From an uncultured Prochlorococcus sp. (GTDB lineage: Bacteria; Cyanobacteriota; Cyanobacteriia; PCC-6307; Cyanobiaceae), in NCBI GenBank assembly GCA_913048245.1, contig CAJWWR010000009.1, forward strand, positions 1-34,655: 34,655 nt of DNA, in the 5' to 3' direction. How positions within the stretch are numbered: position 1 is the first letter of the stretch; each line of letters starts with the position of its first letter. Below are positions 8,568 to 8,923 of the stretch, one piece after another. The notes beneath the pieces were generated by a model. That model was not told where the DNA came from, did not search any database, and saw only the letters and a list, made by a program, of their open reading frames with translations. The translations under genes were made by a program, and so were the position numbers.

Positions 8568-8596
8568 TAGACATGCAAACAAAAAACATATAAAAT
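8568..8596 (+). promoter_or_regulatory. Sigma-70 type promoter of the riboswitch/DUF4278 transcript
   Basis: TAGACA (8568-8573, five of six matches to TTGACA) and TAAAAT (8591-8596) are separated by exactly 17 nt. Predicted transcription would begin near 8603-8604, just before the NtcA-like box and about 20 nt upstream of the riboswitch stem. Confidence 0.6.
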
Positions 8597-8603
8597 CAAT
8601 AAT

Positions 8604-8617
8604 GTAGCAAATGCTAC
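8604..8617 (+). promoter_or_regulatory. NtcA-type box GTAN8TAC at the predicted transcription start
   Basis: The sequence GTAGCAAATGCTAC is a perfect match to the NtcA consensus GTA-N8-TAC and is itself dyad-symmetric (TGTAGCA-AA-TGCTACA, 8603-8618). Activating NtcA sites usually sit about 40 nt upstream of the start. Here the box falls at about +1 to +14 of the predicted promoter, a position expected for repression. The same palindrome could simply form an RNA hairpin at the 5' end of the transcript. Confidence 0.6.
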
Positions 8618-8620
8618 AAT

Positions 8621-8676
8621 TTCGTTCACCCATTTTGGGCGCAGTTCGAGCTATACCAGGGAACGGGGGATAGCCG
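8621..8676 (+). ncRNA. Glutamine-II (downstream-peptide) riboswitch
   Basis: A compact RNA matching my knowledge of the downstream-peptide glutamine riboswitch. P1 is CGUUC (8623-8627) with GAACG (8661-8665). An internal hairpin is CCC (8629-8631) with GGG (8637-8639), followed by CGCAG. The pseudoknot GCUAU (8650-8654) with AUAGC (8670-8674) is perfect. The conserved stretches CGUUCACCC, GGGCGCAGU and CCAGGGAACGGGGGAUAGC are all there. It ends 17 nt before the start codon of a 57-residue gene, the arrangement that gave the motif its name. Glutamine would stabilise the pseudoknot next to the ribosome-binding region and probably lower translation. Confidence 0.88.
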
Positions 8677-8692
8677 TTTTGTTAACAGAATC

Positions 8693-8866
8693 ATGACAAC
8701 ACTAACTTACAGAGGAAAAGCCTACACTCAAAACAAAGAAGCCTCTAAAAAGAAACTAGTTGAGCTTACATATAGGTCAAGCGTTTACAAATCGAGGCAA
8801 AATGCTGCTTCTTCAAACAATGAAACAGCAAATCTAAGCTACAGAGGTATTAATTACAAAAAGTAG
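8693..8866 (+). CDS. DUF4278-type small repeat protein (57 aa), riboswitch-controlled
   Basis: A 57-residue basic protein built on three copies of a short motif: LTYRGKAYT (4-12), LTYRSSVYK (25-33) and LSYRGINYK (48-56). The (L)xYRGxxY repeat is the signature of the cyanobacterial DUF4278 family, whose function is unknown. The ATG follows the riboswitch pseudoknot by 18 nt, without a strong Shine-Dalgarno closer to the start. The intervening sequence is rich in Lys, Ser and Asn and looks disordered. Promoter, NtcA-like box, riboswitch and terminator make it a self-contained unit responding to nitrogen status. The role is unknown; a small regulator or binding protein in nitrogen metabolism is conjecture. 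Confidence 0.88.
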   Translation: MTTLTYRGKAYTQNKEASKKKLVELTYRSSVYKSRQNAASSNNETANLSYRGINYKK

Positions 8867-8890
8867 TTTAAGAACAAATAGACTTTCTCT

Positions 8891-8923
8891 CCCCCTTCCA
8901 ATTTATTGGTAGGGGTTTTTTTT
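8891..8923 (+). terminator. Rho-independent terminator after the DUF4278 gene
   Basis: CCCCT-T-CCAAT (8892-8902) pairs with ATTGG-T-AGGGG (8905-8915) with one T/T mismatch, followed by eight T residues (8916-8923). It ends the riboswitch transcript 25 nt after the stop codon and insulates the downstream methyltransferase gene. Confidence 0.92.

Follow-up and report, generated by a model that had tools for sequence, protein, structure and literature searches.

A predicted NtcA-type operator at the putative transcription start of a Glutamine-II riboswitch and DUF4278 gene in an uncultured Prochlorococcus

The window (the whole 34,655-nt stretch of DNA analysed here) carries at positions 8568-8923 of the forward strand a compact locus comprising a putative promoter, a palindromic box, a riboswitch, a small-protein gene and a terminator-like structure. 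The Glutamine-II model RF01704 matches positions 8620-8674, scoring 60.1 bits where the gathering score is 33, and the match extends over the full model (positions 1-60); it is the sole Rfam match in the window at gathering thresholds. The conserved core is present, and the covariance-model alignment contains the strands CGTTC (8623-8627) and GAACG (8661-8665), which we take to be the pseudoknot partners, as in the known Glutamine-II structure. The complete glutamine-II riboswitch described in the initial annotation is thus confirmed by the Rfam check proposed there. The 57-residue DUF4278 gene downstream of it is confirmed as well: the ORF at 8693-8866 encodes a protein matching PF14105 at residues 2-55 of 57 with 46.3 bits (cut-off 25.3) and no other Pfam family. 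Ahead of the aptamer, the sequence GTAGCAAATGCTAC at 8604-8617 is, as annotated, a perfect GTAN8TAC box, and is regarded below as a predicted NtcA-type operator; in RNA form it could pair into a hairpin of 5 bp.

A promoter scan placed a -35-like hexamer TAGACA at 8568-8573 and a -10-like hexamer TAAAAT at 8591-8596, the latter starting 13 nt before the box. The pair TAGACA-17-TAAAAT has 10/12 consensus matches; two such sites were found in the window and 2.2 in shuffles, so that the annotated promoter is not supported by number, and it is credited because its spacing is kept in relatives. Several relatives also show TAGACA or TGGACA at a similar position, as judged by eye and without counting. 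Downstream of the gene, a stem with one mismatch at 8892-8915 is followed by a T-run up to 8923 (-12.6 kcal/mol, z -2.3), which is compatible with an intrinsic terminator; the stem and T-run agree with the strong terminator annotated here, although the stem is imperfect and the element at 8892-8923 was absent from the output of a rule-based terminator scan. That scan flagged the box itself as terminator-like. An early terminator at this place was rejected, since many relatives have CAAAAC instead of the T-run and the feature is unconserved.

RF01704 is widespread in the group, being present in 148 of the 151 genomes sampled from the genus and in 92 of the 151 sampled from the family, the latter including a few genus members. 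The genome to which the window belongs (1.1 Mb, about 78% completeness) has two Glutamine-II copies, and its two DUF4278 matches lie just downstream of them; one or two DUF4278 matches were found in each of 41 sampled genus genomes. The second copy in this genome (G000:C39:620-680, L001) is Yfr6-like, with a box identical to GTAGCAAATGCTAC and a shorter DUF4278 match. At L400 and L401, two Prochlorococcus loci lacking the box, the riboswitch stands ahead of a different small protein, one example of which has no Pfam match, and the aptamer of L401 is identical to the wild-type aptamer printed in a crystal structure paper (PMC6698751). In five other genera, a variant Glutamine-II element (L393, L395-L399, L402-L405, L409) has CGTTG for CGTTC and GGCAACGG for GGAACGG, and several of these loci lead into a peptide with AYRGVxYVDAHHD, one example again having no Pfam match.

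Is the box more than a chance match, or does the riboswitch alone control the gene? GTAN8TAC occurs four times in the window against a mean of 3.76 in shuffles, so a lone copy is, by number, no more than chance. The extended palindrome GTAGCN4GCTAC has three sites in the 1.1 Mb of the own genome (reversed control, 0), two at the Glutamine-II loci and one upstream of amt1; across 61 genus genomes its count is 0-4 per genome, and that of the reversed control 0-2. These motif counts give weak support, and the position and conservation of the box are decisive. By using the window protein as query in genome contigs, 80 same-locus relatives were found, sharing as neighbours a nifU-like gene (79/80), a small reverse ORF (79/80) and a methyltransferase gene (80/80). 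GTAN8TAC is kept in all 80, starting 19-20 nt before GTTCA, which bears out the conservation in related strains on which the initial annotation had made its case depend; these relatives are close, with an identical protein in 71 of the 80. We then considered 262 picocyanobacterial Glutamine-II loci, namely the window, the second own-genome copy, the 80 relatives and, for the most part, top-scoring riboswitch matches of the genus and family. A box lies 18-24 nt before the aptamer GTTC in 254 of them. As the set contains duplicates (e.g. L112 and L259), counts are also given on distinct 45-base upstream stretches, 234 of 242 of which have the box; the set is biased to strong riboswitch matches, and loci with weak matches were sampled separately (17 loci, see below). 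Conservation at such narrow spacing indicates that the box is more than a chance match, an explanation that is refuted as far as sequence can do so and that we consider extremely improbable.

The box is missing in eight of the 262 loci. Five of these (L176, L203, L214, L216 and L220) seem to form a single paralogue group, in which the riboswitch may act in nature without the operator. L179 has GCAGC...GCTGC instead of GTAN8TAC, and L156 and L257 are degenerate.

The place of the box relative to the transcription start can be approached through a published paralogue. The MED4 yfr6 RNA was reported as complement(627729..627972), with its first G mapped (Axmann et al. 2005, PMC1242208). Reading these coordinates on genome G015, a single 1,657,990-bp contig, gives an RNA that starts with GTAGCAACCGCTAC and continues into a Glutamine-II leader. 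The published coordinates of yfr1, yfr2 and yfr4 also give plausible RNAs on G015, those of yfr2 and yfr4 carrying the GGAAACA repeat mentioned in the same paper, and the ATG of the yfr6 peptide falls at nt 98 by our count against 97 in PMC1242208. The 5' end reported for yfr6 coincides with the first box G, so that the box occupies +1 to +14 in this paralogue. Among the 234 distinct boxed stretches, the best -10-like hexamer (at least 4/6 matches) begins 12 nt ahead of the box in 179 cases and 13 nt ahead in 23, and only weak -10-like hexamers are found in 11. This spacing is consistent with a start at the first box G in general. For the gene in the window, transcription is predicted from the yfr6 paralogue and the hexamers to start at or next to 8604, which would place the box at +1 to +14 of the transcript.

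Such a position bears on the sign of control, which the initial annotation had left out. At NtcA-activated promoters the site lies near -41.5, and at repressed ones over the -35, the -10 or the start (PMC6166021); NtcA sites are at -30.5 in gifA and -7.5 in gifB (PMC6316151), and that of nirP1 lies over the transcription start (PMC10907346). In the window, GTAN8TAC overlaps the start predicted for this strain, and NtcA should thus repress; the box is likely in a repressing, not an activating, place. Activation by NtcA, as at ordinary nitrogen-stress promoters, would fit the perfect GTAN8TAC, which is the classical activator site. However, it needs a -10 about 22 nt after the box, and in the window no -10-like hexamer starts 20-24 nt past the box (best 2/6 matches); a hexamer with at least four matches to TATAAT occurs at that distance in just 3 of the 234 relatives' stretches, and 221 of the 234 have one just before the box instead. 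Moreover, Yfr6 RNA drops on nitrogen depletion (PMC1242208), and we hold activation to be very unlikely. Repression by NtcA agrees with this lower Yfr6 RNA and with a glutamine-activated riboswitch, a Prochlorococcus Glutamine-II element being reported to activate on glutamine (PMC6316151, citing Klahn 2018).

That NtcA is the protein that binds the box is suggested by the half-sites, which fit its consensus. All 31 Prochlorococcus amt1 loci examined have GTAN8TAC, and Amt1 transcripts go up on nitrogen deprivation in Prochlorococcus (PMC5607370). The own-genome amt1 box (L144), GTAGCAACGGCTAC, is the only one of the 31 in which both inner pairs are complementary. Two controls count against NtcA as the putative binder: a strict box lies within 260 bp upstream of glnA in only 3 of 30 Prochlorococcus loci, and at amt genes outside the genus in 7 of 30, the latter figure being affected by uncertain start codons and paralogues and by the choice of the first box. 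The boxes at Glutamine-II loci are thus stricter than NtcA sites need be, and this strictness could reflect another binder or a second constraint. Another dimeric regulator, such as a different CRP-family protein preferring GTAGC half-sites, would explain why the inner bases vary much less than those of the amt1 boxes and why conservation of the box greatly exceeds that at glnA, and the authors of the NsrR1 study raised the idea that a CRP-like regulator accounts for part of its repression (PMC6166021). On the other hand, the third own-genome GTAGCN4GCTAC site lies upstream of amt1, and ChIP-bound NtcA sites of Nostoc include GTAGC half-sites (PMC3898017). We regard a regulator other than NtcA as unlikely.

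In a rival reading, the palindrome is mainly an RNA element. If transcription starts at the first G, the palindrome would form a hairpin capping the mRNA, which might protect the transcript or help the riboswitch, the NtcA match being secondary or accidental. Consistently, a 5-bp stem forms on folding in 238 of the 254 boxes (median -4.9 kcal/mol). Complementarity at both inner pairs, 4-11 and 5-10, with G-U counted, is seen in 238 of the 254 Glutamine-II boxes, against the single amt1 box mentioned above; this excess of symmetry could be due to RNA pairing. In addition, pair 4-11 shows double changes without single ones (2 loci), and pair 2-13 a double change in L179. However, L179 is the only locus with a matched change within GTA/TAC, the invariance of GTA and TAC in all 234 boxed stretches being given by the search definition; pair 5-10 is a C-A mismatch in 16 of the 254 boxes, and its association does not reach significance when distinct 14-mers are counted (Fisher p 0.13), the p of 8e-5 on 45-mers being inflated by relatedness.

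The weak-match loci provide a natural test of this point. They comprise 17 low-scoring Glutamine-II loci from 15 genomes chosen for weak best matches, with GTAN8TAC in 14, GTG for GTA in one and no box in two. At 11 of these loci, from five genera (g6, g24, g30, g47 and g54), a distance of 27.5-31.5 nt separates the centre of the box from the aptamer. The best -10-like hexamer downstream of the box starts 13 nt ahead of the aptamer at 10 loci and 14 nt ahead at the remaining one. A post-box hexamer with at least four matches is present in 9 of the 11, and one before the box in 1 of the 11; these -10 assignments are predictions. The box should be untranscribed there, yet 10 of the 11 keep GTAGC...GCTAC. 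The arrangement at these 11 loci resembles that of Nostoc gifA, in which a ChIP-bound box lies 11 nt before the -10, followed by the start (PMC3898017). Two further loci of the low-scoring set, L406 and L407, have GTAN8TAC but lack the inner symmetry. A palindrome kept outside the predicted transcript in five genera speaks for a DNA operator rather than an RNA hairpin, and a strong DNA operator with two placements relative to the start would be the simplest reading. Examined with amt1 as a control, with the pair changes and with the likely untranscribed boxes, the hairpin was rejected as the main reason for the palindrome, a role in which it appears distinctly improbable, and is retained as a minor rival or a second role.

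The product of the gene is less easily placed. The 57-aa protein has 12 K or R, three E and no D, and contains three YR-containing repeats (LTYRGKAY, LTYRSSVY and LSYRGINY). A search of solved structures with it gave three matches, none significant (best E 0.014); among them, the coding segment 8693-8863 shows non-significant similarity (E 0.014 and 0.27) to Gloeobacter Glr1262 and Glr2806 in PDB 9k9w. An AlphaFold model built from 10 similar sequences is weak (mean pLDDT 67.7, pTM 0.33). In IF17, the N-terminal part is a DUF4278 domain that is reported to be dispensable for function and good for stability (PMC6316151), which makes it doubtful that the 57-aa protein directly copies the action of IF17, even though the same review calls the MED4 protein IF-like. 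Judging from its regulation and family, this small basic protein most likely brakes nitrogen assimilation or serves as an adaptor in its control, and this is the least certain step of our reading. As for the translation switch, folding nine leaders with the pseudoknot strands blocked, in a crude model, gave no consistent opening of the start region: its mean unpaired share changed by +0.22 in one leader and by +0.00-0.08 in seven, and was lower in one, so that such folding reveals no switch in translation.

The closest published counterpart is MED4 PMM1846 (Bolay et al. 2018, PMC6316151), which encodes a DUF4278 small protein and has a glutamine riboswitch in its 5' UTR and, in the promoter region, an NtcA consensus motif. 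It shares all three of these with the window gene and belongs to a different strain. Dual control is thus not new, having been proposed for this related gene in that review. The joint use of an NtcA box and a glutamine riboswitch suggested by the initial annotation therefore gains support from the conservation and position of the box, while the idea itself had already been published. The portion of the review consulted says nothing of a box lying over the start, of how well it is conserved or of the second arrangement found in other genera. A box and leader of the same kind were found at about 395.6-395.9 kb in MED4, and this locus may be PMM1846. Synechocystis gifB, encoding IF17, is similar in having an NtcA repressor site near the start (-7.5), a glutamine riboswitch in the leader and an N-terminal DUF4278 (PMC6316151). 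Unlike the window gene, gifB has a type 1 (glnA-motif) aptamer, and IF17 has a C-terminal IF7-like part, for which the 57-aa protein leaves no room beside DUF4278. Yfr6 of MED4 and SS120 has a paralogous Glutamine-II leader, and the MED4 RNA starts with a box of this kind and is lower on nitrogen depletion (PMC1242208); it differs in its 33-aa reading frame, and neighbours of the window gene, looked for at 30 Yfr6-type loci, were found at none. NirP1 and PirA are likewise small inhibitor proteins that are NtcA-repressed via sites near the start. PirA, which is characterised by binding PII and competing with NAGK, is reported absent from marine picocyanobacteria, and in the part of the PirA paper available a riboswitch is named in the reference list only.

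Taken together, the whole locus is probably a gifB-like nitrogen-excess switch combining NtcA repression at +1 with a glutamine riboswitch. The analysis shows the riboswitch, the family of the gene and the box, together with how the box is conserved and where it sits with respect to the -10-like hexamers and one published paralogue 5' end; from these we infer NtcA as the binder, the repressing sign, the on-direction of this riboswitch copy and the role of the protein. Transcription would begin at position 8604, the first box G, or beside it. Under nitrogen shortage, with 2-oxoglutarate high, NtcA would occupy the box over the start and block transcription. When nitrogen is ample, NtcA would leave and the leader would be transcribed, and glutamine would then stabilise the Glutamine-II pseudoknot, allowing the DUF4278 protein to be translated. 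The two controls would form an AND gate of low 2-oxoglutarate and high glutamine, the protein being made only when both signal nitrogen plenty. More tentatively, and with considerable doubt, the same gate may operate across nearly all picocyanobacterial Glutamine-II/DUF4278 genes, with the operator at +1 in the main group and, its palindrome preserved, at about -28 in some other genera, and the 14 bp of the main group may double as a 5' hairpin of the mRNA under their control.

As far as we searched, three features appear to be new, namely a nearly universal box fixed at +1, its palindromic arms, and the palindrome about 28 bp before the aptamer in five genera. The literature searched, mainly open-access papers, contained no mention of a box fixed at +1, of how nearly universal it is or of a second placement, which is weak evidence of absence. 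The +1-fixed operator offers exact mutants, and the arrangement in the other genera offers a natural control. Marine picocyanobacteria appear to be without full-length classical glutamine-synthetase inhibitors, and the regulation of the enzyme has been called unclear (PMC6316151). Glutamine-II/DUF4278 genes, predicted to respond to 2-oxoglutarate via NtcA and to glutamine via the RNA, and present in nearly every sampled genome of the genus, would be a strong candidate for the glutamine-synthetase brake.
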